Virus record (IMG/VR): IMGVR_UViG_3300044731_000338
Coordinates: 1 to 40,605 of that record
Strand: one strand, 5' to 3'
From: a virus
DNA: 40,605 bases
Shown piece by piece: positions 188-21,100 of the stretch (position 1 is its first letter; each line of letters starts with the position of its first letter). The notes beneath the pieces were generated by a model. It had not been told where the DNA came from and did no database searches. It saw only the letters and a list, made by a program, of their open reading frames with translations. The position numbers and the translations under genes were made by a program.

Positions 188-598
188 TCATCCCCCTATC
201 TGTCCCTGGTAATCTCTCAGGGTCCAGTCTTTGACCCCGTATTCCCGCATCACTCCCCGGCTTTCAAGTCCGGTCTTCACGCTGTGACAGTCGGGACACA
301 AGGATTGAAACCGGTTGACCCTGAATGCATCGGGTCCAATGGATCGCCAAGGCCAAACATGGTCGACCACGCTAGCAGCGCGAATCAGTCCTTGATCCTT
401 GCATGCTGCACACAATGGAAAGCGGGAAAGCTGCGCCTGCCTCATCGTTTGCCATGCCCTAGTCTTGTAAAGGTGCAAGTCTTCCCGGCTTGGAGCTTGC
501 CTGCGAGTCGGGGCATGGTCTGCACACAAAGATGATCCGGGCGCACTAGAGTGAGTGCAGCGAAGGACAGAACACCTAGCACGGGGGACTGTTGGCAT
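188..598 (-). CDS. HNH endonuclease, terminase-adjacent type
   Basis: This 136-residue protein has a Cys-x2-Cys pair (63-66), an HNH core with Asp-His at 79-80, and a second cluster CPDCH at 101-105. That is the usual zinc-stabilised beta-beta-alpha-metal HNH nuclease arrangement. It ends about 300 nt ahead of the terminase small subunit gene if the two window ends are joined, and it points the same way. In many HK97-type cos phages an HNH protein beside the terminase assists specific cleavage of cos DNA during packaging. That role is known for the family and inferred here. The ATG at 598 is preceded by AGGTG and by a copy of the TAGGG motif that overlaps the leader. Confidence 0.85.
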   Translation of the reverse strand: MPTVPRARCSVLRCTHSSAPGSSLCADHAPTRRQAPSREDLHLYKTRAWQTMRQAQLSRFPLCAACKDQGLIRAASVVDHVWPWRSIGPDAFRVNRFQSLCPDCHSVKTGLESRGVMREYGVKDWTLRDYQGQIGG

Positions 599-612
599 AG
601 GGTAAACACCTA
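598..612 (+). promoter_or_regulatory. TAGGGWWWWCACCTA motif, copy A
   Basis: The sequence is TAGGGTAAACACCTA. It shares all 11 fixed positions with copies at 3364-3378 and 6211-6225. It lies between the divergent HNH gene and the rightward operon that starts at 687, with its right end 75 nt before that start codon. It overlaps the HNH start codon by one base. The bases TAGACT that follow CACC could act as a weak -10 element. It could be a phage promoter element or a regulator-binding site. Confidence 0.5.
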
Positions 613-649
613 GACTGCGGTTGTTCTGGATGTTCTACCATCGGGGCAT

Positions 650-668
650 CGCACCAATCCCTGGTGCG
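650..668 (+). promoter_or_regulatory. Leader hairpin before the first early gene
   Basis: CGCACCA (650-656) and TGGTGCG (662-668) form a perfect 7-bp stem with a 5-nt loop. The stem ends 8 nt before the GGAG ribosome-binding site (676-679) of the small membrane protein gene at 687. No T-run follows, so it is not a terminator. It may affect mRNA stability or translation. Confidence 0.3.
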
Positions 669-686
669 TCAACGTGGAGTCCTAGC

Positions 687-803
687 ATGATTGACAAGGC
701 TTTCAACATCATCGGGCTGGCTTGCCTAGCCGTTTTTGGCGCTGGCTTGCTGGCGATGATGGCAATTCTTGGTGCGACCTATATCAGCATGTTCGTGCTG
801 TGA
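687..803 (+). CDS. Small single-pass membrane protein
   Basis: This 38-residue protein begins MIDKAFNIIG and is almost wholly hydrophobic from residue 5 to the end, with no charged residue after Lys4. That fits one transmembrane helix. The ATG at 687 is chosen because GGAG (676-679) sits 7 nt upstream; the open frame extends further 5' but has no ribosome site there. It is the first gene of the rightward operon behind motif copy A. Tiny early membrane proteins in phages often affect superinfection or the cell envelope, but I cannot assign a function. Confidence 0.55.
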   Translation: MIDKAFNIIGLACLAVFGAGLLAMMAILGATYISMFVL

Positions 804-805
804 CT

Positions 806-886
806 ATGAAAACCCGTCCCATTGACATCGTTTTTGCTTGCCTATTCGGTATCGCTCTAGGATGCTTGATAGGCTTTTCCCTTTGA
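806..886 (+). CDS. Tiny membrane peptide, 26 residues
   Basis: The frame starts ATG at 806, two bases after the preceding stop, and ends at 886. After a short basic start (MKTRPID) the rest is a hydrophobic stretch rich in Gly, Leu, Phe and Ile with two cysteines, which looks like one short membrane segment. There is no clear Shine-Dalgarno, so translation would depend on re-initiation after the neighbouring gene. It fills an otherwise empty gap in a compact operon and matches its neighbour in character. It remains a prediction. Confidence 0.35.
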   Translation: MKTRPIDIVFACLFGIALGCLIGFSL

Positions 887-914
887 TCTTTTCTAACTTT
901 GATGGAGTCTAAAC

Positions 915-1673
915 GTGAAAAACCCGTATCGTTCAATCCTTCGCTCGCTTGGTTTGTCCTATCGTCCTATTCTTGGTGAGTCTTCCACAAAGACAATCAA
1001 GGGAGAAAAACTAAATTTTCTCACGGGGATTCTGTACCTCACCCCAGACGACGAATTGTGCCCCCATGCTAGGTTGGCGGGCTGTATGGAAGCTTGCCTG
1101 AAATCTGCGGGTCGTGGGGCTTTCAATTCTGTACAGAAAGCCCGCGCTGCAAAAACTGCATTTTTTCGGGAGCATCGGCAAGCTTTCATGCTGTCACTTT
1201 GTGCCGATATTTGGACACTAGTTCAGAAAGCCCGCCGGATTGAAATGTTCCCCCTTGTCCGTCCTAACGGTACGTCAGATATCCCATGGGAGAATATCGA
1301 AGCTTACGATGGAAAGACAATTTTCCAATTGTTCCCTGACGTAATGTTCTATGACTATACGAAGCATCCATCCCGCAAGCTTGCGACGAAAACAATAGGT
1401 AATTATGACCTTACCTATTCGTTTTCTGCGATAACCCCTAAGCCGATTTCAATCAAGGGGCTGACGAATCCTGATAACAAACGGGTTGCGGTAGTCTTTC
1501 ACAAAAGGGAGGACATCCCGTCATCTTTTAGGGGATGGCCTGTAATTGACGGGGATGACACCGATGTTAGGCATATCGAACCCCAAAAAGTTGTTGTTGC
1601 CCTGTACGCTAAGGGCAAAGCCCGTCAAGATCAATCCGGGTTCGTTCAAATCAAGGGGGTGCACTATGCATGA
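915..1673 (+). CDS. Gp88-like / DUF7227 family protein
   Basis: This 252-residue protein carries the hallmark of the phage Gp88 family. Residues about 46-90 contain a Cys-Pro-His start, a GCMEACL cysteine cluster, AGRG, and a block ending KARAAKT followed by an aromatic pair. The family is widespread in phage genomes and its molecular role is not established; the conserved cysteines suggest metal or iron-sulfur binding, which is inference. The start is GTG at 915 with GGAG at 904-907. It overlaps the next gene by 8 nt, indicating coupled translation. Confidence 0.75.
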   Translation: MKNPYRSILRSLGLSYRPILGESSTKTIKGEKLNFLTGILYLTPDDELCPHARLAGCMEACLKSAGRGAFNSVQKARAAKTAFFREHRQAFMLSLCADIWTLVQKARRIEMFPLVRPNGTSDIPWENIEAYDGKTIFQLFPDVMFYDYTKHPSRKLATKTIGNYDLTYSFSAITPKPISIKGLTNPDNKRVAVVFHKREDIPSSFRGWPVIDGDDTDVRHIEPQKVVVALYAKGKARQDQSGFVQIKGVHYA

Positions 1674-1794
1674 TGCTGATTACGTTCAAAGCCTGAAAGA
1701 TGCTCTTCTATGGGCACTCACTCAGATAGAAGACTCACTTGATCCAGATCATCAGGCAGCTCTTGAGGCTTCCTATGCATTGTTGGAGGGTTGA
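1666..1794 (+). CDS. Small early protein, unknown function
   Basis: This 42-residue, acidic, helix-prone protein starts with ATG at 1666 inside the end of the preceding gene and has a purine-rich AAGGGGG ribosome site just upstream. It runs to a stop six bases before the ribosome-binding region of the next gene ends. No motif is recognised. Its support is position: it is sandwiched tightly between two genes of the same operon and has its own ribosome site. Confidence 0.5.
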   Translation: MHDADYVQSLKDALLWALTQIEDSLDPDHQAALEASYALLEG

Positions 1795-1796
1795 CC

Positions 1797-1973
1797 ATGC
1801 ACACAATCAAGCCCGGTAGCATTGGCGTAATGCTTGACGACGATGTCCCTACGATGTGGGAATTTTTGGGCTACCGCAGCCCGTCCATCGGTCACTTTCG
1901 CAACATCGTCAACGGCGGACAATGGGACCGAGACACTAGTCTTTTTTGGCCCTTGATAGACTCCCTCCCCTAG
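1797..1973 (+). CDS. Small early protein, unknown function
   Basis: This 58-residue protein starts at ATG 1797, which has GGAGG (1785-1789) at a good distance; an in-frame TTG at 1791 is too close to that site. The chain is rich in Gly, Trp and aromatic residues (for example WEFLGYRSPS) and has no known motif. It could be a small regulatory or host-takeover protein. It is the last gene of the first rightward operon and is followed by a strong terminator. Confidence 0.5.
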   Translation: MHTIKPGSIGVMLDDDVPTMWEFLGYRSPSIGHFRNIVNGGQWDRDTSLFWPLIDSLP

Positions 1974-1985
1974 TCTTTCCCTCTC

Positions 1986-2016
1986 AAAAATGCCCGGACC
2001 CGATCCGGGTTTTTTT
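1986..2016 (+). terminator. Rho-independent terminator of the first early operon
   Basis: CCCGGA (1993-1998) and TCCGGG (2004-2009) form a perfect 6-bp GC stem with a 5-nt loop, followed at once by seven Ts (2010-2016). A run of As lies on the left side. It sits 12 nt after the stop of the gene ending at 1973. Confidence 0.9.
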
Positions 2017-2031
2017 GCGAGTGAAAACGAA

Positions 2032-2043
2032 GTGAGCGCTCAC
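2032..2043. promoter_or_regulatory. Perfect 12-bp palindrome
   Basis: GTGAGCGCTCAC is a perfect dyad in non-coding DNA, just downstream of the terminator. Palindromes of this size are typical dimeric repressor sites. No promoter is evident around it, so the role is unknown. Confidence 0.3.
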
Positions 2044-2071
2044 ATCTTATCGGTCAACCATGCCCCTATGG

Positions 2072-2137
2072 CAAGCCCGCCAGCAAGCCCCGCCAGATCA
2101 AGCCCGCAAGCCCGCCCGCTAGTCCTATCAAGCCCCG
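2072..2137. repeat. Cluster of CAAGCCC(C)GC repeats
   Basis: CAAGCCCGC occurs at 2072-2080, 2099-2107 and 2107-2115. The one-base-longer CAAGCCCCGC occurs at 2084-2093, and CAAGCCCCG at 2129-2137. Further AAGCCCGC copies are scattered from about 1.1 to 3.3 kb, including inside the Gp88-like gene. Irregular spacing rules out a CRISPR. The cluster may be low-complexity drift or a set of protein-binding sites. Confidence 0.45.
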
Positions 2138-2310
2138 AATCCTCCCCTTTCCCCATGTCCGATGCCATGAAAGCCCGCCACGATGCCCCGTTGCCAGAAT
2201 GCCCCGAAAAGCCCATTGGAGCCCCTATGCGGCCCTGTCGCGGTTTTGCATACCCGTATACCTCAAAACCCACTCGGTCAACCTGAGCGATTCTGGCGCG
2301 TTTTAGGCGG

Positions 2311-2339
2311 ATTAGGGTTTACCCTATTAGGGTTTACCC
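2311..2339. repeat. Two tandem 14-bp repeats ATTAGGGTTTACCC
   Basis: Identical 14-mers occupy 2311-2324 and 2326-2339, a 15-bp period separated by one T. The first forms TAGGGT-TT-ACCCTA, a dyad with 6-bp arms. The sequence resembles the TAGGGWWWWCACCTA motif but is one base shorter. It looks like paired protein-binding sites in a convergent intergenic region. Confidence 0.5.
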
Positions 2340-2435
2340 GATGTTAGTGGTTACTGACGTACCTAGCAAATATGGTTACCCCACTACGCATTCTTAAAAG
2401 AAAAAATTGAAAAATAAAAACTGCCTTACTTTTTC

Positions 2436-2648
2436 TTAGCTAGGCACACTTTTTTTGCAGACAGCCGGTTCTGGATAATCTTTTTTCTCACCTTTGTACC
2501 CAGAAGCGTACGATGCTCTAGCAACCTGTAGAGCCTTTGCTTTTGTTGGGAATGGGCCTTGAGTGCCCCACATCCAGCCTTTGACTGTCTTTCGTAGTGG
2601 CATGGTCAGCTTTGCGTTTGTTGCGTTTGGTGGCGATCTTTCCACCAC
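2436..2648 (-). CDS. Small protein of unknown function
   Basis: This is a lysine-rich 70-residue frame starting with GTG at 2648. An alternative start is ATG at 2603, giving 55 residues beginning MPLRKTVKG. The central part, KGWMWGTQGPFPTKAKALQV, resembles a short domain seen in small phage proteins, but I cannot name it with certainty. It overlaps the upstream leftward gene by 43 nt if the GTG is used, and neither start has a strong ribosome site, so coupled translation is likely. It is encoded opposite to the early operons, as regulators often are. No function is assigned. Confidence 0.5.
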   Translation of the reverse strand: MVERSPPNATNAKLTMPLRKTVKGWMWGTQGPFPTKAKALQVARASYASGYKGEKKDYPEPAVCKKSVPS

Positions 2649-2851
2649 TTAATCACTGATTTGGGCTCATACCAAACTCTGTTCTTGCCAGCAACGCAGT
2701 GCCCAAGTGACTTCGCCGTGATCTTCCCAGGCGCTGATTCATGCGCTAAATCATGCAACAGTTTCTGAGAAGTTATCCACAAGATATCCGCGATCTCAGT
2801 GACAATCTTCAGAGGCTTTCTGCCTTTTGGGGGATATTTATCTAGCCTCAT
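2606..2851 (-). CDS. Small possible DNA-binding protein
   Basis: This is an 81-residue basic protein. The N-terminal half (KIVTEIADIL and following) is helix-prone. The end, NRVWYEPKSVIKWWKDR, resembles the closing beta-hairpin and helix of AlpA/Xis-type winged helix proteins, so a DNA-binding role is plausible but unproven. The start is ATG at 2851 with only AAAAAAGG adjacent as ribosome site. It is the first gene of a two-gene leftward unit that diverges from the replication operon, the usual place for an early regulator. There are no matching hallmarks of a CI-type repressor. Confidence 0.5.
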   Translation of the reverse strand: MRLDKYPPKGRKPLKIVTEIADILWITSQKLLHDLAHESAPGKITAKSLGHCVAGKNRVWYEPKSVIKWWKDRHQTQQTQS

Positions 2852-3173
2852 GCCTTTTTTACTCTGAAAAGATAAGGACTCTTTTTAGGCATAGCTCCCC
2901 CAAGGGTGATAGCACGGAGTCTATCTTCCCTCTCCCGGTCTTTGATAGACCATCAACATAGAAGAAATAAAAAAAAGACCCAAAGTCCCCTGGAGGCAGC
3001 GATTCCTTCGATAGCTTGTTTGTCTCACCACTTGCCAAGCTATCTTCTGCGGTCCCTCACTGACAGGCCGCTCGGCTACGCTTCCGGGTGGAGGAAGGCC
3101 GGTGTTTCTCGGGTTCAGCCCATGCAGGCCAATCAGCTAACGCGCCCTGACGGGTGTGGCGCATCAAGCAAAA

Positions 3174-3277
3174 AACCCTTATTGAGAGATACGGGCCTTA
3201 GGCTTGGTTTGCCGCAACATGGTTGGTCACAACACCTTCCATGCGCTTTGACGAAGCCCGCCCCCTCAATAAGGGTT
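3174..3277 (-). ncRNA. Candidate structured RNA or attenuator: long nested hairpin
   Basis: AACCCTTATTGAG (3174-3186) pairs perfectly with CTCAATAAGGGTT (3265-3277). Inside, GGGC (3193-3196) pairs with GCCC (3260-3263), GGCTT (3201-3205) with AAGCC (3254-3258), CATGG (3218-3222) with CCATG (3239-3243), and GGT (3225-3227) with ACC (3234-3236). All are nested. On the minus strand the closing stem runs into six Ts (complement of A3170-A3175), like an oversized terminator upstream of the leftward regulator genes. It may be a small RNA, an attenuator, or a folded origin. Confidence 0.4.
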
Positions 3278-3352
3278 CGGATGTCGCAGTTGTGTGCTTC
3301 TATCGGGTTACCAATCCGACAGATGCGCGAAGTCTAAGGAAGTCCACAGAAC

Positions 3353-3382
3353 TTGTCAAGCACTAGGGTTTTCACCTATGTT
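3353..3382 (+). promoter_or_regulatory. Promoter of the replication/recombination operon with internal motif copy B
   Basis: TTGTCA (3353-3358) matches a -35 element in 5 of 6 positions and TATGTT (3377-3382) a -10 element in 4 of 6, with an 18-bp spacer. The 15-mer TAGGGTTTTCACCTA (3364-3378) fills the spacer and overlaps the -10 box. Its right end lies 35 nt before the ATG at 3413. A factor bound there would directly control this promoter. Confidence 0.55.
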
Positions 3383-3412
3383 CAAGGTCTTTGACAATGC
3401 CAGAATTTAACC

Positions 3413-3745
3413 ATGGACGCACTACCACCTTGGGTTGATAGAGAAGCCTGGGAAGGCTTTGTAGAGATGAGGAAGGCGATGAAGCGCATTCCTTTTACCG
3501 GCAGAGCAGCAATGCTGGTGCTTAAAGAACTCTACGCATTGAAGGCCGCTGGGCATGATCCCAATGCCTGCCTGGATCAATCAACAGTCAACGGCTGGAG
3601 GGATGTGTTCCCGCCCAGGCACAAGGACATCCAGAAGGTTAATCAACCTGACAATGCTTTGTTGAAGATTAAAGAGGATGAAAAACTGTCGGCTCCGATG
3701 CCTGACAAGGTTCGTGAAATGCTGAAGATCAAGAGGGTTGCCTAA
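3413..3745 (+). CDS. NGW-motif replication-associated protein
   Basis: This 110-residue protein carries a pattern familiar from phage replication initiation proteins. It has an aromatic/charged start (LPPWVDREAWEGFVEMRKAMK), a middle helix with VLKELYALKAAGHDP, and the signature LDQSTVNGWRDVFPP at about 53-67. In larger phage replication proteins this block is a C-terminal module; here it stands alone as the first gene of the DNA-metabolism operon. I infer a role in replication initiation or helicase loading. The ATG at 3413 lacks a good ribosome site. The stop overlaps the next start as TAATG. Confidence 0.6.
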   Translation: MDALPPWVDREAWEGFVEMRKAMKRIPFTGRAAMLVLKELYALKAAGHDPNACLDQSTVNGWRDVFPPRHKDIQKVNQPDNALLKIKEDEKLSAPMPDKVREMLKIKRVA

Positions 3746-3960
3746 TGCAAGTTGTTTATCAAGGTGTTAAGTTTGAAGTCGAGTTCTACGCTGACAAAGG
3801 CCACCCAGGTTCGTATTGGGAGCCTCCTGAGCCTCCTGAGTTTTACATGACATCGATTCAAATCAACAATGTTGAGATGATTGATTGGTTTACTGTTGGG
3901 TTTGTCAGTGAGTTTGAGAACTTCTTAATTCAACTTTTGAAAGAGCCAGATGAGTACTAA
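3745..3960 (+). CDS. Conserved small phage protein, unknown function
   Basis: This is an acidic 71-residue protein beginning MQVVYQGVKFEVEFY, with a PEPPE segment and an aromatic middle; a small beta-rich fold is likely. It starts on the last base of the previous stop (TAATG), so it is translationally coupled, and it overlaps the next gene by 11 nt. I recognise the general type (a short protein whose N-terminus reads like Y.G..YEV.F) from phage early regions but know no function for it. Confidence 0.6.
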   Translation: MQVVYQGVKFEVEFYADKGHPGSYWEPPEPPEFYMTSIQINNVEMIDWFTVGFVSEFENFLIQLLKEPDEY

Positions 3961-4441
3961 CTTGAGAACCGCCGCCCAGCAGGCGCTGGAGGCGTTGGAG
4001 AACAGTTCGCCGGACCAGTACCCAGAAGACGCTGGCGTGTTCTACGATGCTAAGGACGCCCTGCGCGCCGCGCTGGAGCAGCCGGAGCCATGTCAATACC
4101 CAGACTGCGTGGACAACGGGCCCGAAGGCAAATGCACACGCTGGCTGCTGGCTGAGTGCTCAAAGAGCGAAGACTACAAACCCCATCGCCCAGCAGAGCC
4201 GGAGCAGGAGCCGGTGGCTTGGATCAATCCCAAAAATTTGCAGGGGTTGACGTTGGGGCTCTACGGGTATGCCGAAATCTACACGGATGAGTCACAAGGG
4301 CGCGTGCCTCTCTTCACCCACCCACCCCGCCGCGAATGGCGCTCGTTGAGCGAGGAGGAGATTGAAGACCTGCGAGATGACCGTTATTTCAGATTCGCCC
4401 GCGCCATCGAGGCCGCTTTAAGGAGCAAGAACCATGACTGA
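3950..4441 (+). CDS. Conserved phage early protein with EPVAW...PP segment
   Basis: This is a 163-residue protein in two parts. The N-terminal helix (TAAQQALEALE, then a second copy-like KDALRAALEQP) resembles the repeated helices of many betaproteobacterial phage early proteins. After a cysteine-containing stretch (CQYPDC) comes EPVAWINPKN and, near residue 134, VPLFTHPPRREW, a familiar but functionally unassigned pattern. It overlaps both neighbours (11 nt upstream, 8 nt downstream). GC content is somewhat higher than in the flanking genes, suggesting modular exchange. Function unknown. Confidence 0.65.
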   Translation: MSTNLRTAAQQALEALENSSPDQYPEDAGVFYDAKDALRAALEQPEPCQYPDCVDNGPEGKCTRWLLAECSKSEDYKPHRPAEPEQEPVAWINPKNLQGLTLGLYGYAEIYTDESQGRVPLFTHPPRREWRSLSEEEIEDLRDDRYFRFARAIEAALRSKNHD

Positions 4442-4697
4442 ACAACCCGAAGCACTTCGTCTTGCCGACATCATTGAGCAAGACCCAACAACCACTTGGG
4501 GCTACCGAGAAGCATCACATGCTGCCGCTGCGGAACTGCGCCGCCTGCATTCGGTGAATAACGAACTCGCTGCTGCATTGCGCCGCCTCATTAGCTACTG
4601 CAACACGCTGGAGAACCGACTGATGGAAGCAGATGGAGAACACCCTGCAATGCAAGAAGCAAAGGAAGCGTGCGCCAAAGTGGAGGGGAAGGCATGA
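4434..4697 (+). CDS. Helical early protein, unknown function
   Basis: This is an 87-residue, Ala/Glu/Leu-rich protein that should form one long helical hairpin or coiled coil (HAAAAELRRLHSVNNELAAA). Proteins of this kind are common fillers in phage early operons and have no assigned role. The start lies 8 nt inside the preceding gene, and the stop forms an ATGA overlap with the next start. No metal-binding or catalytic motif is visible. Confidence 0.6.
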   Translation: MTEQPEALRLADIIEQDPTTTWGYREASHAAAAELRRLHSVNNELAAALRRLISYCNTLENRLMEADGEHPAMQEAKEACAKVEGKA

Positions 4698-4939
4698 AAT
4701 ACGACATCACCCGCATGGCGCGGGAGGCTGGGTTTCGGTTTTCTGATGAGGAAGGCCCGCTAATGGCGAATCACGCCGAGTGGCAACGCCAACTGTTTGA
4801 ACTCTTGGCCGCCCTTGTCCGTGCAGATGAAAGAGAAGCCTGCGCGAAGGTATGTGAAAGCCTGTTTGATCTTGATGATGATTCATGCAGTGAGGCCGAA
4901 CAGTGCGCCGCCGCCATCCGCGCAAGGGGCAACCCATGA
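4694..4939 (+). CDS. Conserved small phage protein with EREACAKVCE segment
   Basis: This is an 81-residue protein starting MKYDITRMAREAG at ATG 4694, supported by GGAGGGGAAGG just upstream; an in-frame earlier ATG has no such support. It includes LVRADEREACAKVCES and ends AAAIRARG, a combination often seen in small proteins of betaproteobacterial phages and prophages. Function is unknown. It is linked to both neighbours by 4-nt ATGA overlaps. Confidence 0.65.
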   Translation: MKYDITRMAREAGFRFSDEEGPLMANHAEWQRQLFELLAALVRADEREACAKVCESLFDLDDDSCSEAEQCAAAIRARGNP

Positions 4940-5130
4940 AAATATTTACAGTCCAATGGTCAAGTTCTGGAAACGCAGAAAGCGGCACTGTAGTTGTAAA
5001 AGCAAATAATATCGTAGAGGCTCAAAATAAGTTTTGGGCGTGGTTACAAAAGCGTCCAGTGTTTGAGCATATGTGGAATCTTACGTTTCAGTTTGCAGAA
5101 GTTGCCAAGGAACAAGAGGTTATTGAATGA
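4936..5130 (+). CDS. Small early protein, unknown function
   Basis: This is a 64-residue protein from ATG 4936 (ATGA overlap with the previous stop). The alternation of small and hydrophobic residues in FTVQWSSSGNAESGTVVVKA suggests a beta-hairpin, followed by a helix with aromatic residues (AQNKFWAWLQ). No known family is recognised. It ends in another ATGA overlap with the next gene. Confidence 0.55.
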   Translation: MKIFTVQWSSSGNAESGTVVVKANNIVEAQNKFWAWLQKRPVFEHMWNLTFQFAEVAKEQEVIE

Positions 5131-5378
5131 TCTCCTGCATGGGCGGTTGGTGCCATAAACGAGATCAGTGTTTTTACTACCACAATGAGTCAAAAATTCT
5201 TATTGAGCGAGTATGCGAGTACAACAAGTTCCATCTTTATTGGACTGATTCATTTCTGCCACTAACACCATGTACCGTGAATTTGTACTCCGAAACCCGG
5301 ATGTCTGGACAGGATTCTGTGCAATCATCAAAGGAAACGCCCAGGCTTTTGCAGATAAAGGAACCCCAATCCGACTGA
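5127..5378 (+). CDS. Cysteine-rich small protein (CxGGWCxxRxxC type)
   Basis: The N-terminus, MISCMGGWCHKRDQCFYYH, with ERVCE further on, matches a small cysteine motif common in betaproteobacterial phage early genes and probably a metal site. The frame then runs 109 nt into the NinB-like gene in another frame. The part after about residue 48 does not look like the usual family end, so this may be a copy whose original stop was lost or a natural long overlap. Function unknown. Confidence 0.5.
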   Translation: MISCMGGWCHKRDQCFYYHNESKILIERVCEYNKFHLYWTDSFLPLTPCTVNLYSETRMSGQDSVQSSKETPRLLQIKEPQSD

Positions 5379-5674
5379 TAGTTACTACTGAAGAAGCCAA
5401 ACGCAATACTGCTCAGAATGCTAGGTTGTGGGGTTATCTGTACAAGACGATTTCTCAGCAGGCATTCGTCAATGGCAAGCAATATGACTCAGACGTTTGG
5501 CATGAAATGTTTGCGCGTAAGTTTGGCGTATGCGATGAAGTAACTCTGCCTGATGGTGAAATAATCACCCGCAGAAAGTCAACTACTCAAATGTCTGTAA
5601 CTGAGTTTGGTGAGTATATGGAGAATGTGCAGAGTTATGCGGCTATGAATCTAGGAGTTGTGTTTGAACAATAA
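5270..5674 (+). CDS. ninB: NinB / lambda Orf-like recombination mediator
   Basis: This 134-residue protein matches the NinB pattern. There is a charged central block with TAQNARLWGYLYKTISQQ (about 46-63) and then YDSDVWHEMFARKFG. After that come a LPDG turn, STTQMSVTEFGEYMEN and a GVVFEQ end. Lambda Orf binds single-stranded DNA-SSB complexes and helps load annealing protein in phage recombination. The same operon has ERF, an exonuclease and SSB, which fits. The ATG at 5270 has no good ribosome site and lies inside the preceding frame, so coupling is likely. Confidence 0.85.
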   Translation: MYREFVLRNPDVWTGFCAIIKGNAQAFADKGTPIRLIVTTEEAKRNTAQNARLWGYLYKTISQQAFVNGKQYDSDVWHEMFARKFGVCDEVTLPDGEIITRRKSTTQMSVTEFGEYMENVQSYAAMNLGVVFEQ

Positions 5675-5924
5675 ACTCAATCCTGCCGAGCGTAGGCACC
5701 TTGCTATGGTTAAGGTTCTACCTTGTAGTGTCTGTGATGCGCCTGGGCCTTCAGAGGCTCACCATATCGTCCAGGGGCTTCAGTACACCTGCGTAGCCCT
5801 CTGTCCTGAATGTCATACTGGTCCGCGAATGGGCTGGCATGGACAGCGGTTTGCCTGGAAGATTCGCAAGATGGAAGAGATTGATGCTTTGAATATAACG
5901 ATTAAGCGGCTATGTCTAACTTAG
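5664..5924 (+). CDS. Ref-type (RecA-dependent) HNH nuclease
   Basis: This 86-residue protein has CSVC (21-24), EAHH (31-34), CPECH (47-51) and a trailing MGWHG with a basic helix. That is the zinc-bound HNH layout of the P1 Ref family (recombination enhancement, RecA-dependent nuclease), which nicks DNA targeted by RecA. I choose TTG at 5664 because GGAG (5654-5657) is 6 nt upstream; TTG at 5658 is too close. It overlaps the NinB-like gene by 11 nt and the next gene by 13 nt. It is shorter than P1 Ref, lacking the long basic N-terminus. Confidence 0.75.
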   Translation: MNNKLNPAERRHLAMVKVLPCSVCDAPGPSEAHHIVQGLQYTCVALCPECHTGPRMGWHGQRFAWKIRKMEEIDALNITIKRLCLT

Positions 5925-6244
5925 AACTTCTACTCCTCGACCAACTCCGCGCAGCAGGCATAGAAGAGCCTGGGCTTGAGCACAAGTTCCACCCTAAACG
6001 CCGCTGGAGGCTGGACATGGTTTGGCCTGCTCACATGCTGGCCGTTGAGGTCGAGGGCGGAACATGGATTGGGGGTCGCCATACCAGAGGTTCCGGTTTC
6101 GAGAAAGACGCCGAGAAGTACGCCGAAGCTATGTGCCTGGGCTGGAGGGTTCTCCGAGTTACAGGCTCTCAAGTCTGCACTGGAAAAGCCCTGAAGTGGA
6201 TTCAACAACTTAGGGAAAACACCTACTCTCACGTTAAAATTTAA
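5912..6244 (+). CDS. PD-(D/E)XK-fold nuclease
   Basis: This is a 110-residue protein. RWRLDMVWP (Asp35) followed by LAVEVEGG (Glu46, Glu48) and then GRHTRGSGFEKDAEKYAEA matches a group of small restriction-fold nucleases encoded in phage recombination operons, related in fold to Vsr and Holliday-junction enzymes. The conserved GWRVLRVT strand near residue 77 supports the fold. A Holliday-junction resolvase role fits, since no RusA homologue is visible, but it is inference. It overlaps the Ref-type gene by 13 nt. Confidence 0.75.
   Translation: MSNLELLLLDQLRAAGIEEPGLEHKFHPKRRWRLDMVWPAHMLAVEVEGGTWIGGRHTRGSGFEKDAEKYAEAMCLGWRVLRVTGSQVCTGKALKWIQQLRENTYSHVKI
6211..6225 (+). promoter_or_regulatory. 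TAGGGWWWWCACCTA motif, copy C
   Basis: The sequence is TAGGGAAAACACCTA, in the same orientation as copies A and B. It lies in the last codons of the nuclease gene, 60 nt before the ATG of the HTH/H-NS gene, ahead of one of the few true intergenic gaps in this operon. TAAAAT (6235-6240), 5 of 6 to a -10 box, follows; so does the dyad GTTAAA-A-TTTAAC (6233-6245). It may drive a second promoter. Confidence 0.5.
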
Positions 6245-6285
6245 CCTCCACAATCTAACCGTCACAAGACACGAAAGGACACAAG

Positions 6286-6597
6286 ATGTTTCTATCTATC
6301 AATGGTGTTTGCGCTTTGCTGGGGACTACTCGCGGCAAGGTTCATAAGTACATGAAGCAGGGCCAGTTTCCGCTTCCTATCCAGACCGATACCAAGATGG
6401 TCTTTTGGGACAGGGAAGTTGTATGTACCTGGGAAGAGCCTAAGAAGCAACCCAAGGTAAAGGTCGCCAAAGAGCGTAAGCCTGTAGTACCCAAGTACCG
6501 TGACGGTGAGAACACTTGGTCTGGTCGCGGCATCATGGCTAAGTGGCTGAAGACTCACATTTCCAATGGTCGCTCTATTGATGAATTCAAGGTATGA
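6286..6597 (+). CDS. Hybrid regulator: AlpA/MerR-like HTH plus H-NS-type DNA-binding motif
   Basis: This 103-residue protein has two parts. Residues 1-50 read as a small winged helix-turn-helix of the AlpA/excisionase type (SINGVCALLGTTRGKVHKYM, then FPLPIQ and a basic strand). After a basic linker, residues 70-102 (YRDGENTWSGRG, then WLK and a small acidic end) match the C-terminal DNA-minor-groove domain of H-NS proteins as found in Burkholderiales. The normal H-NS oligomerisation coiled coil is absent. It has a good ribosome site (AAAGGA) and probably its own promoter (copy C). Its target is unknown; it may silence genes or compete with host H-NS. Confidence 0.7.
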   Translation: MFLSINGVCALLGTTRGKVHKYMKQGQFPLPIQTDTKMVFWDREVVCTWEEPKKQPKVKVAKERKPVVPKYRDGENTWSGRGIMAKWLKTHISNGRSIDEFKV

Positions 6598-7431: not shown

Positions 7432-8032
7432 ATGGTTTCAGCAAAGGGTAGGCAAGGCAACTGCGTCTCGGATTAAGGACATCGTTGCCAAGACCAAAAC
7501 TGGAGCATCAGCTTCTCGAAAGAACTACGCTGTCGAGTTGGCTCTTGAGCGACTCACCGGGTCCAAAAGAGAAGGCTTCACCAACGCGGCGATGCAGCAT
7601 GGGATCGATCAGGAGCCTTATGCAAAACTTGCATACGAGAACCGCACTGGTCAACTGATTCAGGACGTAGGGTTTATTGACCACCCGACGATTCCAATGT
7701 CAGGCGCGTCTCCTGATGGTTTCCCAGGGGAAGGCCTGATTGAGATCAAGTGCCCTAACTCAGCGACTCACCTAGACAACCTGCTTCGCGGATCGGCTGA
7801 CCCCGAATACCTGCCTCAGATGTATTGGCAGATGGCTGTGACGGGTAGACCTTGGTGTGACTTCGTGTCCTTCGATCCAAGGTTCCCTGAGCACCTCCAG
7901 TTGGCGATCTATAGGGTAAACACTGATGCCCAGAAGATCAAAGAACTTGAGAATGAAGTCTCTCAGTTCTTGACTGAGGTTGATTTGATTGTGGAGAAAC
8001 TTAATGGAATCACAGTGCCATCAAATAGTTGA
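7415..8032 (+). CDS. YqaJ / lambda-type 5'-3' exonuclease
   Basis: This is a 205-residue protein of the viral recombinase YqaJ family. After QTPEWFQQRVGKATASRI it has Glu67 in HGIDQEPYA, Asp101 in MSGASPDGF and the Glu110-x-Lys112 pair in IEIKCP, the PD-(D/E)XK catalytic set. Such enzymes resect double-strand ends so the partner annealase (here ERF) can pair strands. The ATG at 7415 follows AAGGAAG; the longer upstream frame lacks family sequence. A partial copy of the TAGGG motif (7912-7926) lies inside it. Confidence 0.93.
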   Translation: MQQTPEWFQQRVGKATASRIKDIVAKTKTGASASRKNYAVELALERLTGSKREGFTNAAMQHGIDQEPYAKLAYENRTGQLIQDVGFIDHPTIPMSGASPDGFPGEGLIEIKCPNSATHLDNLLRGSADPEYLPQMYWQMAVTGRPWCDFVSFDPRFPEHLQLAIYRVNTDAQKIKELENEVSQFLTEVDLIVEKLNGITVPSNS

Positions 8033-8201
8033 ACTTCTCCGACAGGGGCCTGTCACGCCACAGGATGCCCTGCAAAAAGTTGGGTGTTTTCGTCTTGCTG
8101 CGCGTATTCATGAACTACGCAAAGCAGGATACGACATCCGGCAGGTTATGAAACAACGCAATGGCAAGCAGTTTGCCGAATATCACTTGAAGGAAGAATG
8201 A
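8004..8201 (+). CDS. Winged helix DNA-binding protein (HTH_39-like)
   Basis: This is a 65-residue protein. HQIVELLRQGPVTPQDALQ, CFRLAARIHELRKAGYDI and the final KQFAEYHLKEE form the small winged-helix pattern common in phage genes near SSB. It probably binds DNA, as regulator or replication accessory. The ATG at 8004 is chosen since GGAGA (7993-7997) is 6 nt upstream. It overlaps the exonuclease gene by 29 nt and SSB by 4 nt. Confidence 0.8.
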   Translation: MESQCHQIVELLRQGPVTPQDALQKVGCFRLAARIHELRKAGYDIRQVMKQRNGKQFAEYHLKEE

Positions 8202-8592: not shown

Positions 8593-8724
8593 ATGTTCAC
8601 TAAACCTGACGGAACCAAATCCAAGAACGCCCCGCCTTGCTGGCCTTTCGGTACGGTAAAACCTCCGACCAAGAAAGAACTGCAAGACCAAATATTGAGG
8701 GAAGCAGATGAAGCACTTCTATGA
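8593..8724 (+). CDS. Short early protein, unknown function
   Basis: This 43-residue protein starts MFTKPDGTKSKNAPPCWPFG and ends in a helix with acidic and leucine residues. TAGGA sits 6 nt before the ATG, and the gene fits exactly between SSB (8-nt gap) and the next gene (17-nt overlap). The order proline-rich segment then helix (PPTKKELQDQI) looks like a peptide that docks on another protein. No family name is known to me. Confidence 0.5.
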   Translation: MFTKPDGTKSKNAPPCWPFGTVKPPTKKELQDQILREADEALL

Positions 8725-8911
8725 CGCAGCCACAGGAGAGATGTGCTTCAGCATGGCTCTGCTGGCGATGAAAAACGGAAAGCAAGTCCGTCGAAAAGCA
8801 TGGCATGGAACAGAATTCATCAGCATCAATTTCCTGATGCATCTTTCTTACTGCAACCTGCGTTCTGACGACATCCTGGCTATTGATTGGGTGGAACTCT
8901 ATGACTACTAA
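8708..8911 (+). CDS. DUF2829 / Tad2-like protein (possible anti-Thoeris)
   Basis: This 67-residue protein has FSMALLAMKNGKQVRRKAWHG (about 14-34), a strand FISINF and a closing DDILAIDWVEL. That is the order of the DUF2829 domain (helix, GK-x-V-x-R-x-x-W, then A-x-D-W). Proteins of this family include Tad2, which sequesters the cyclic ADP-ribose-type signal of Thoeris immunity. Sequence supports the family; an anti-defence role here is inference, and many members are untested. The ribosome site is GAGGGAAG. It overlaps the next gene by 11 nt. Confidence 0.6.
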   Translation: MKHFYDAATGEMCFSMALLAMKNGKQVRRKAWHGTEFISINFLMHLSYCNLRSDDILAIDWVELYDY

Positions 8912-9888: not shown

Positions 9889-10117
9889 CGTAGCAAGATG
9901 TGATGGAATTAAATACCATGATGAAAACTGGGGATCGTGGCTTGATGACAGATGTTTCGGCTGCCAAAGAAGGTCCTTTCCGTCTGGGCAATGGCAAGTT
10001 TGGATGTCGCCTTTCACAGGCTCCGGCCCCTGTCCCTATAAGATTGAGAATCCTGACTCTCCTGCAAGAACTTGGCCCCATGACAGCCAGAGAGTTGGCA
10101 GAACAGTTAAAGATTAA
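9881..10117 (+). CDS. Cys-containing zinc-ribbon-like protein
   Basis: This 78-residue protein reads MSNVARCDGIKYHDENWGSW, then CFGCQRRSFPSG, WMSPFTGSGPCPYKIE. The spacing of Cys7, the CxxC pair and the final GPC fits a small zinc-binding protein common in betaproteobacterial phage early operons. The C-terminal third (after PYKIE) is unlike the usual family end and lies over the next gene in another frame. Function unknown. Confidence 0.55.
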   Translation: MSNVARCDGIKYHDENWGSWLDDRCFGCQRRSFPSGQWQVWMSPFTGSGPCPYKIENPDSPARTWPHDSQRVGRTVKD

Positions 10118-10403
10118 GCACGTTAATCAGATAGCCGCCGCTCTTCAGGGATGTGACCACTATCACATCTCAGGCTATCGGCGTGACGAAGACGGTGGGA
10201 GGCTGTATCCTCGCGCACTCTACGCTTATGGCCCAGGTAAAGAAGCTAAGAAGCCTCCTAAACTGAGCAGACAAGAGTACAACAAACGCTCAAAAGCAAA
10301 GATGCGGAAAACTGTGTCTAGCGTCTGGGACTTGGGAATCTTTTACGAGGATCGAAGAAAACATGCGCTGTCCAACATGCGGAGTCTGGACGTTTGTACT
10401 TGA
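10044..10403 (+). CDS. Winged helix protein, start uncertain
   Basis: The frame encodes LRILTLLQELGPMTARELAEQLKIKHVNQIAAALQ (quoted here as its two parts LRILTLLQELGPMTA and RELAEQLKIKHVNQ), a clear winged helix-turn-helix. A strand-turn YHISGYRRDEDGGRLYPRAL and a basic tail follow. The start is not fixed: TTG 10044 keeps the whole first helix, ATG 10080 truncates it, and GTG 9900 would double-code most of the preceding gene. No start has a good ribosome site. It is probably a DNA-binding regulator. It overlaps the NrdR-like gene by 41 nt. Confidence 0.6.
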   Translation: MRILTLLQELGPMTARELAEQLKIKHVNQIAAALQGCDHYHISGYRRDEDGGRLYPRALYAYGPGKEAKKPPKLSRQEYNKRSKAKMRKTVSSVWDLGIFYEDRRKHALSNMRSLDVCT

Positions 10404-18168: not shown

Positions 18169-21100
18169 TTAAACGTAACCAGGGAACCACACAACGGCCC
18201 CACTGTTTGTACTTACTTTAATCCAGGCCGCACGATTGTTTGGATCAGTTGGAGCGGTATTGTTGTTTACATAATAAAGATATTCGCTATTAGTAGTTCC
18301 TGATGCAATTTCCACAAATGCCGACGCGTGTTTTCCATCCAACTGATCTGCGTTTAGGTTAGTGACCAATGTTGTATTGGTCATCGTCATTGGGCCTTCA
18401 ACAGAAAGCGCAGTACCTGAACCCGTGTTTTTAGCTACAACTCCAATTGCGGTAGATGTTGTTGCTATACCCTGAACACCAACACTTGCTCCAGAGCTAT
18501 TTGTGTATCCATAAACACCAAAACTTACACCAGTTGTTTTGGATTGACCTAGCACACCAATGTCAGCAGTCCCAGTTGCGTTGGCTTTTAATGCCATACT
18601 CAACGCAAACGCTGTGCTTGTATTGCCTGTAAATTCTCCCGCGCCGTTACAGTAGACATTTCCTGTAACAGTCATGGCCGATCCATCCCAAGTCAAAGAC
18701 TGAGTTGATGAACCGATTGAGAACTTATAAGCAGCACCTGAATAACCAAGGAAAAAGCCAGTTCCTGTGTTGTATGCGGTCTGGCCGCCCTTGATGTGGC
18801 CTGACGTATTAATAGTCAGAGCATCTTGAACCGTCAAAGCTCCGGTGTTCACCGTGATGGCAGAAAGCGATCCAACCTTCAGAGTAGACAGGTAAGGCAC
18901 ATTCCAAACCGTGTTTCCTGTTGTTGGATCATATACACCATCACTTTGATAAACAGATTGACCAGCAATAATAGTCGGCGCAGTCGCAACCCAGTTTTGA
19001 TTTACACCACCAATAGTCGCGCCCCAAGAACCAGCAGGGGGGAAACTTGTGCTACCAGATGTTGTTATCGTGGTTGGTGTTGAATTGAGACTTGTAAGAT
19101 CAGTTGAGGTATAGCAAATACGAGAAGATGCGCCGTTAGTACCTGCATCACTAAATACAAATTGAAGCTGGGCTGTTGCGGCTTGAATAACACTACCAGA
19201 CAAATCTTTATATCGAACAGGAACAGTTAAAACCGCAGGGGAACTTGTCATCGATGACGGTATTCCCCATTCCGCATATGTACCGCCATCAGTAATAGAA
19301 CCTAGAGTTAAACCACCAGTGGTTGTTATGTCTGCGTTGCCCGTAGTTGAACTAGCACCAATTCTCCAAGAATTATTTACAAATGATCCAGCCGAATCTG
19401 TTTGTGCAGTGACGAAATTTACTGCGCCACCAGCATTTGAACCATAAAGCCTTGTAATTATTCCAGTAAAAGTTGGAGTTACGCCAGACCTTGGGACTTG
19501 AATTGCCGCAGGAGCAAAGGAAGTAACAAAAGAAGTCGCCGCTAAAGTTGCCCAAGAAAAAGCAGAAGATATGGTGGACAACTCTGATGACCCATACTCA
19601 TTAGATACGCTAAAAGCAAAATAATATGTATCAGTTCCTAAAATTACATCAGTAAATTTAATAGACGCACTAGGAGTAAATGGCTCAGAGTTGGGTGATA
19701 CTTGAGTAGCCCAGATTTTCCAATCTGCTTGAGATGGAGAAACAACTGTTGTATAAAAAAGGCTAATTGAAGTTACTCGCCCAGATGAAGGGAGTTGGCA
19801 AGAAACACTAAATGTTGGAGGATTGTCTGCTGGAAGCTGATCTGAAAATGTAGGAGAAGAAAGAGAGGGAAAATAATAAACGCTTGCCATTAAAGAATTG
19901 GATGCAGGCGCAAATTGAGCAACACTTCCATCGTCATAGACGCTTGCGTTGTATTCTGCGGCTTCTAGTCTTGCTCCAAGGTTGCCATCAGGAAGAGAGG
20001 CTTCTTGTACCTTGGTGACTCGGAAAAGTTTTGCTGACCAACCGTAGTCTGCATTTGTTACGGATATCACATCTCCCGCGTCTACTTGAATACCTGTGTA
20101 AGCAGTAGAGAAAGAAACAATCAGGTCTTCTCGAGCCTGCTCAAGAATACGGTTAGCCAGATAACTAGCTTGTACTGAGTCATTAACCAGATCAAAGCTG
20201 GTTGAGTATTTGTTTACTGGCTCATTAGGATAGAGAAGCCCAGCGGGCGTCTGGAGGAAGACGTACTCGGGTTGGTCTTTGTTGTCCTTGAATGGGAATG
20301 AAACTTCGATCTGGTTAATAGAAGACGCCAGATCAACAACAGAGACTTTGATTTCTCCAATAATATTGGAGTCATTAAAAGCAAAACTTGTCGATTCTGC
20401 CTTGTTGATTACTGGTGCCCACTGACCAGTAGAGGCTTGGTAAGACAACCAAGAGTCACACGCTGTCAGAATGTTGTCTACGTTTTCTAGGACCGATCTT
20501 CCGGTGTCAATGACTCCGTTGATTCGATACCTAGCTTGAGTAGAAGAGCCACCACCAGAGGGAGTATAGGTGATCGTGGCGTCCGAGTAAGTGTTTAGAG
20601 CGTTGCAGGCAGTCGTATTGACTGAAGCCGCAGGAACAGCTCCACCATAGGTCGTAGAGGTCAGGTAGTCATAAAGCGCATCCCCAGGCTTTGCAACACC
20701 AGTTCCGTTCAGTGCGTGTTTGACCTTGAAGGTGACAGGCTGGAGAGAGGTCGTCCCAGCATCCCGGTTATAGATGAGTTTGACGATGGCAAACGCCAGA
20801 CCATTCATCTGCCGAGTGCCGGTCCAACGTAGGCCAGCAGCAATGTCACTGCCCCCCATGAACGTGGACGGGGAGGTGCCTGTAACGTTGGTGATGGTGC
20901 CAGCAGCAGTCGAGGTGTAGAGATTGATGTAGAGGTTTCCAGAAACCTTGGTGTCTACATTTCCATCACCATCAGTCAGGGATATAACTTTAGTTGGATC
21001 AGTACCATCAAAAGCGACAAGCCGATCACCGTAGTAGAACTTGGTCCGATCATAAGTGAACTGTCCGTTCGGCGAGATATTGGAAATCGCCAGGACGTAG

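Follow-up and report, generated by a model that had tools for sequence, protein, structure and literature searches.

The box and its copies in the window

The left part of IMG/VR virus record IMGVR_UViG_3300044731_000338 (40,605 bases, hereafter the window), which reads as a tailed phage from its gene content, raises the question of what is recognised at a 15-bp box, TAGGGWWWWCACCTA, recurring ahead of its rightward genes. A sequence-only reading had proposed that the box marks the start of every rightward transcription unit, either as a promoter element for an activator or an altered polymerase, or as an operator for an early regulator. Exact copies, all on the plus strand, were indeed found at 598-612 (TAGGGTAAACACCTA), 3364-3378 (TAGGGTTTTCACCTA) and 6211-6225 (TAGGGAAAACACCTA) and nowhere else in the window, and the count in 100 dinucleotide-preserving shuffles of the window was 0. 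Each is a candidate activator-type box. The first, a candidate promoter of genes 687 and 915 (the latter encoding a GP88-family protein), lies directly against the ATG of a leftward HNH gene; the second precedes gene 3413 and the third gene 6286. The distance of 60 nt reported for gene 6286 is exact, and those of 75 and 35 nt become 74 (ATG at 687) and 34 (ATG at 3413). Although the three copies do precede genes, extending this to every rightward unit is an extrapolation, and the 6211 box lies within the 3′ end of an open reading frame (5912-6244, plus strand), where it would act as an internal promoter.

The inventory of three was also incomplete, as further relatives are present at 2313-2326, 2328-2341 and 7912-7926. 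The first two form a plus-strand tandem (2313-2341) written TAGGGTTTACCCTA T TAGGGTTTACCCGA, that is, the 14-bp TAGGGTTTACCCTA and a near-copy of it; a perfect tandem pair is present in the relative L009. The last, TAGGGTAAACACTGA (plus strand), is a possible fourth, degenerate box inside the exonuclease gene, 77 nt before gene 8004. Its codons, TAT AGG GTA AAC, show no synonymous variation across 15 relatives; of all codons, 24% lack synonymous change. The evidence for a functional box at this place is suggestive only. In one relative, L007, the exonuclease segment with its 7912-type box is present twice (4046 and 6761), perhaps as an assembly artefact.

A semi-palindrome enriched in phage loci

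The three window copies are one form of a larger semi-palindrome, TAGGG-N4/5-(C/A)CCTA. Its occurrence was measured in 80 IMG/VR loci (0.69 Mb) picked solely for encoding GP88, by counting TAGGG-Nx-CCCTA and TAGGG-Nx-ACCTA with x from 0 to 11; the CCCTA forms were scored on both strands and are halved here. N4-CCCTA was found at 25 places in 22 loci, N5-CCCTA at 33 in 27 and N5-ACCTA at 29 in 25. All other combinations were near zero, and ten control palindromes matched in composition averaged 0.4 to 1.8. As the counts peak solely at N4 and N5, the element is a semi-palindrome whose spacer, mostly AT, has 4 or 5 bases. Seventy of the 87 sites fall outside open reading frames of 60 amino acids or more, a space that makes up 20% of the bases (gene calls in the contigs were simple ones made for this analysis), and they lie mostly 45-75 nt upstream of the start codons of many unrelated genes.

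The element recurs in several unrelated phage lineages, mostly freshwater ones, and is not confined to GP88-encoding phages. Two contigs without GP88, G423 (31.8 kb) and G426 (40.7 kb), have six N5-form sites each, none in structural blocks, and Limnohabitans phage DC31, a 76-kb cultured isolate, has two exact N5-form boxes, centred at 20014 and 45030 and both intergenic. The labels "freshwater" and "Burkholderiales" used here rest on the host of DC31, on protein relatives and on the bacterial genomes available for sampling. The box was not found in Methylophilaceae phage P19250A, the nearest cultured relative of the window by capsid protein, and a megablast comparison of the left end of the window with cultured phages gave no match.

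In bacterial chromosomes, the plain box is close to background: 22 copies of N5-CACCTA were counted against about 15 for the control in 399 genomes, and about 30 of the N4 form against 14 in 200 genomes, at most a twofold excess. With two exceptions these copies lack the −10 geometry described next, and on both grounds a general bacterial regulon for the plain box appears unlikely.

Position relative to the −10 hexamer

In 10 of the 34 non-redundant sites that precede genes, a good −10 hexamer stood 29-31 nt from the box centre, where 2.05 were expected (0 of 2000 shuffles). The measurement was repeated on two sets fetched by the 15-mer alone, ignoring gene position. Among the matches listed, which gave 168 non-redundant contexts, 35 −10 boxes stood at 29.5 or 30.5 nt, compared to 7.2±2.7 after shuffling (maximum 17 of 1000) and to 12 when the same contexts were read in the reverse orientation. 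In the GP88-selected loci, the composite of box plus −10 occurred 29+15 times, against 0+0 for reversed controls. No conserved −35 was found in the −10-positive sites (2.90 matches of 6, versus 2.59 in shuffles). With the −10 hexamer at −12 to −7, the box centre would fall at −41.5 or −42.5, which agrees with the class II activator position of about −41.5; together with the missing −35, this gives the layout of a class II activator-dependent promoter. The sequence-only reading had noted instead a TAnnnT directly after CACC. This holds for the three copies, but in only 37 of 172 other contexts, which is the chance level, and such a conserved −10 is ruled out; the −10-like boxes stand some 23 nt farther downstream.

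At the window sites, the candidate −10 boxes are all on the plus strand. For the 598 box it is TACCAT (636-641), 30.5 nt from the centre, with TAACAT in L152 and TATGAT in L375 at that place. For the 3364 box, CAGAAT (3401-3406) stands at 29.5 nt, with GACAAT (3393-3398) as an alternative; relatives L013, L016 and L018 have GACAAT at 29.5 nt. For the 6211 box, CACAAT (6249-6254) stands at 30.5 nt, with TAAAAT (6235-6240) as an alternative, and relatives have GAAAAT (L012) or CAAAAT (L009) there. GAGAAT (7949-7954) is 29.5 nt from the centre of the 7912 box.

The boxes also recur at the same gene boundaries in relatives. The 598 box has a counterpart in L152 (TAGGGTAAACCCCTA) and another in L375, and the 3364 box is found as TAGGGTTTCCACCTA in L013 and as TAGGGTTTTCCCCTA in L016 and L018, all loci around homologues of the 6286 protein. 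For the 6211 box the expectation holds in most relatives only: it is conserved ahead of the 6286 homologue in L004-L012 and in L014, L013 has a broken copy, and L016 and L018 have none.

A probable activator-dependent promoter element

Conservation at the same boundaries, recurrence before many genes and a class II position before a sigma70 −10 all favour the first of the proposed functions, a phage-specific promoter element for an activator. We consider it probable that the box is the binding site of a dimeric activator and replaces the −35 of sigma70 promoters. The dimer would bind TAGGG-N4/5-CCCTA, one half of which is often relaxed to ACCTA, and from −41.5 or −42.5 it would contact host RNA polymerase beside sigma region 4, as in class II activation. 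Transcription would then start via the −10 boxes, which follow the box after about 23 nt, and in the window the GP88, replication and recombination units would be driven in this way. The altered polymerase finds no support and was set aside: the −10 hexamers downstream are ordinary sigma70 ones, and no polymerase or sigma factor was recognised among the window proteins scanned.

Several points weigh against an activator site. Only about one fifth of the listed contexts fetched by the 15-mer alone show the −10 geometry, which means that many of them are chance matches. The coexistence of two spacings, N4 and N5, is unusual for a single dimer. In the window itself the −10 candidates are weak, with 4 matches of 6 each, and nearer alternatives exist for the 3364 box (GACAAT at 3393, TATGTT at 3377) and the 6211 box (TAAAAT at 6235). 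Finally, a start set by the 3364 box at 29.5 nt would leave gene 3413 almost leaderless.

Proteins that may read the box

At the sequence level, no family of proteins was recognised in every site-bearing phage. G423 to G426 lack GP88, and the family of gene 3413, among others, has a patchy distribution. The sequence-only reading had suggested binding tests of the proteins from 2606, 6286 and 8004, none of which is present in all site-bearing phages. The same is true of the wider set of regulator candidates in the window, which adds an ArsR-like protein (9918-10403): the first gene past the 6211 box (6286-6597, plus strand), which fuses an AlpA-like helix-turn-helix (HTH) domain to an H-NS C-terminal DNA-binding domain; a winged-helix HTH_39 protein (8004-8201, plus strand); and an 81-amino-acid protein without family match (2606-2851, minus strand), divergent from the 3364 box. 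Stand-alone mini-proteins like the H-NS C-terminal domain are present in G423, G425 and G426. Since the box is common to unrelated phages that have no recognisable regulator in common, it would be read either by a host activator or by a hidden, exchangeable phage regulator.

The host version refines the activator reading. It supposes an activator with a small chromosomal carbon-uptake regulon, whose site many phages have captured, and besides the sharing of a box without a shared regulator gene, it draws on the chromosomes of one family of the order Burkholderiales. There the composite of box plus −10 was found 16 times versus 5 for the control in 301 genomes, and 5 times versus 1 in 401 genomes. 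Several of these composites precede transporter or catabolic genes, namely TRAP, Bug, DUF485 (acetate) and ring-hydroxylating enzymes as read from translations, and the same locus recurs in different genomes (L427, L428, L497 and L503; L426 and L434; L437 and L438). Their density, however, is about 3000-fold below that in the GP88-selected phage loci, and the plain box is hardly enriched. Nor do the promoters concerned carry the box as classes: none of 30 TRAP (DctP) promoters had it within 1 mismatch, fewer than for control palindromes, and none of 20 DUF485 loci had an upstream box within 1 mismatch, which, with a different ACTU sequence, also sets aside the CrbR acetate regulon. A MarR-type protein adjoining three host sites was rejected as reader, a near-match to the box being present at only 1 of 24 orthologues. 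A host reader thus seems to us quite possible, short of probable. A bolder form of it, in which several unrelated, mostly freshwater phage lineages converged on the host activator of a few Burkholderiales carbon-uptake promoters and made its box the standard promoter for early and middle genes alike, is rather unlikely; if true, it would tie phage gene expression to the nutritional state of the host. In two Burkholderiales genomes (L243, L244), TAGGG-N4-CCCTA lies between isocitrate lyase-like and LysR genes, with similar downstream sequence.

Alternatively, the phage itself may encode the reader, as a small protein that evolves fast and is expressed constitutively, in a middle-promoter switch like those of Mu Mor or lambda CII. 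The strong phage specificity of the box and the several HTH proteins of the window are in its favour, as is a sigma70-like consensus promoter beside the 3364 box, TTGACA-17-TAGACT (3359-3331, minus strand), which faces 2606-2851 and 2436-2603. The sequence-only reading had placed the 3364 copy between a −35-like and a −10-like box; TTGTCA and TATGTT do flank it, but this leftward promoter is the better one and takes its −35 from the same bases. That −35 is just 4 nt from the box, and the promoter is kept in L013, L016 and L018. Because it would express both leftward genes, the 2606 protein, 80% identical to its counterpart in G216, is the most attractive phage candidate here. In one subfamily another protein, c8, adjoins the sites (24 of 47 site-bearing loci versus 3 of 33 others); by eye it may be RHH-like, with no match in Pfam. 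On the other side stand the absence of a recognisable family common to the site-bearing phages and, for those window proteins that were put through Pfam, the lack of any Mor/C, CII or Ogr match, although small proteins can escape such a scan. A phage reader is accordingly put forward tentatively, with somewhat less than even confidence. Around the 3364 box we also observed inverted repeats, TTGTCAA...TTGACAA (3353-3400), with similar TTGTC/GACAA pairs in L013, L016, L108 and L112; they are perhaps a second operator.

The box could instead be a repressor operator, at which a dimer covering −35 to −50 would shut the rightward promoters in a switch resembling that between lysis and lysogeny, and at 3364 affect the leftward promoter too. 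A palindromic site overlapping the −35 region would suit this, and so would the position of the 3364 box between TTGTCA and TATGTT, next to the conserved leftward promoter. Yet no conserved −35 is present to drive the promoter unaided, which argues for activation, and repression would not call for the constant spacing between box and −10 that is seen across many unrelated phages. The window proteins that were scanned include neither an integrase nor a CI-like repressor, and we regard repression as quite improbable. That the three copies arose by chance, or were kept only through coding or shared ancestry, can be dismissed: the 6211 copy does fall in coding sequence, and the majority of its relatives are very close ones, but the shuffles gave none, and the idea is refuted by the enrichment of the element, which stands in differing flanking sequence ahead of unrelated genes, in phages that are themselves unrelated.

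Relation to known promoters

At the phage middle promoters Pm of Mu and PRE of lambda, an activator (Mor and CII, respectively) sits over the −35 region. They resemble the present box in having a phage-specific box in place of a −35, an ordinary −10, and several early or middle units so equipped; they differ in box sequence, and the present box spans several unrelated lineages. Of the window proteins scanned, none was recognised as a homologue of Mor, C or CII. The stoperators of cluster A mycobacteriophages, which also carry GP88, are repressor sites, placed also inside transcription units. Like the phage box they are short, asymmetric, phage-specific and repeated over the genome, whereas the phage boxes sit at promoters with a fixed −10 spacing. 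A bacterial parallel is given by class II promoters of the FixJ/LuxR type. The ACTU box of acs, at −52 to −36, resembles the phage box in being an imperfect inverted repeat that immediately precedes a sigma70 promoter; it is required for activation and is read by CrbR, of the LuxR family (PMC5715377). ACTU sequences (TACTACCATCGTCGAAT and similar) nevertheless differ from TAGGG-N5-CCCTA, and the CrbR/ErdR acetate-utilisation regulon has acetate permease targets, while the Burkholderiales DUF485 promoters studied here lack the phage box.

Literature searches with TAGGGTTTTC and TAGGGTAAAC returned unrelated papers only, with no published box of this sequence, and none was found on Limnohabitans phage promoters. 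With its class II-like function, the element would thus be a known kind of promoter with a new box. TAGGG-N5-MCCTA-N22/23-TANNNT is a signature that can be searched for in environmental phages, where gene regulation has otherwise gone unread; for uncultured phages it would predict where transcripts start and operons begin, and Limnohabitans phage DC31 offers a cultured test case.

Gene content and minor observations

The late block of the window is leftward (portal, terminase, major head, tape measure). The early block is rightward and comprises GP88, an O-like replication fragment, NinB, the AlpA/H-NS fusion, ERF, a YqaJ exonuclease, HTH_39 and SSB. The HNH gene abutted by the 598 box occupies 188-598 (minus strand), and the GP88-family protein (PF17338), downstream of that box, 915-1673 (plus strand). 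The first gene past the 3364 box (3413-3745, plus strand) resembles O-like replication initiation proteins in their C-terminal portion.

Past a strong rightward terminator (1992-2010), the stretch 2100-2341 is gene-poor, contains repeated AGCCCGC words and ends in the tandem TAGGGTTTACCC pair; it could be an origin. Elsewhere, in L180, L181, L188, L191, L192 and L378, several boxes and half-sites (AAGGGTTT, TAGGGTAAACCCTA) are clustered within 100-300 nt, and these clusters are perhaps a control region or origin. A Tad2-like domain (Thoeris anti-defence) was matched at window positions 8708-8911, with a score above the Pfam cut-off.

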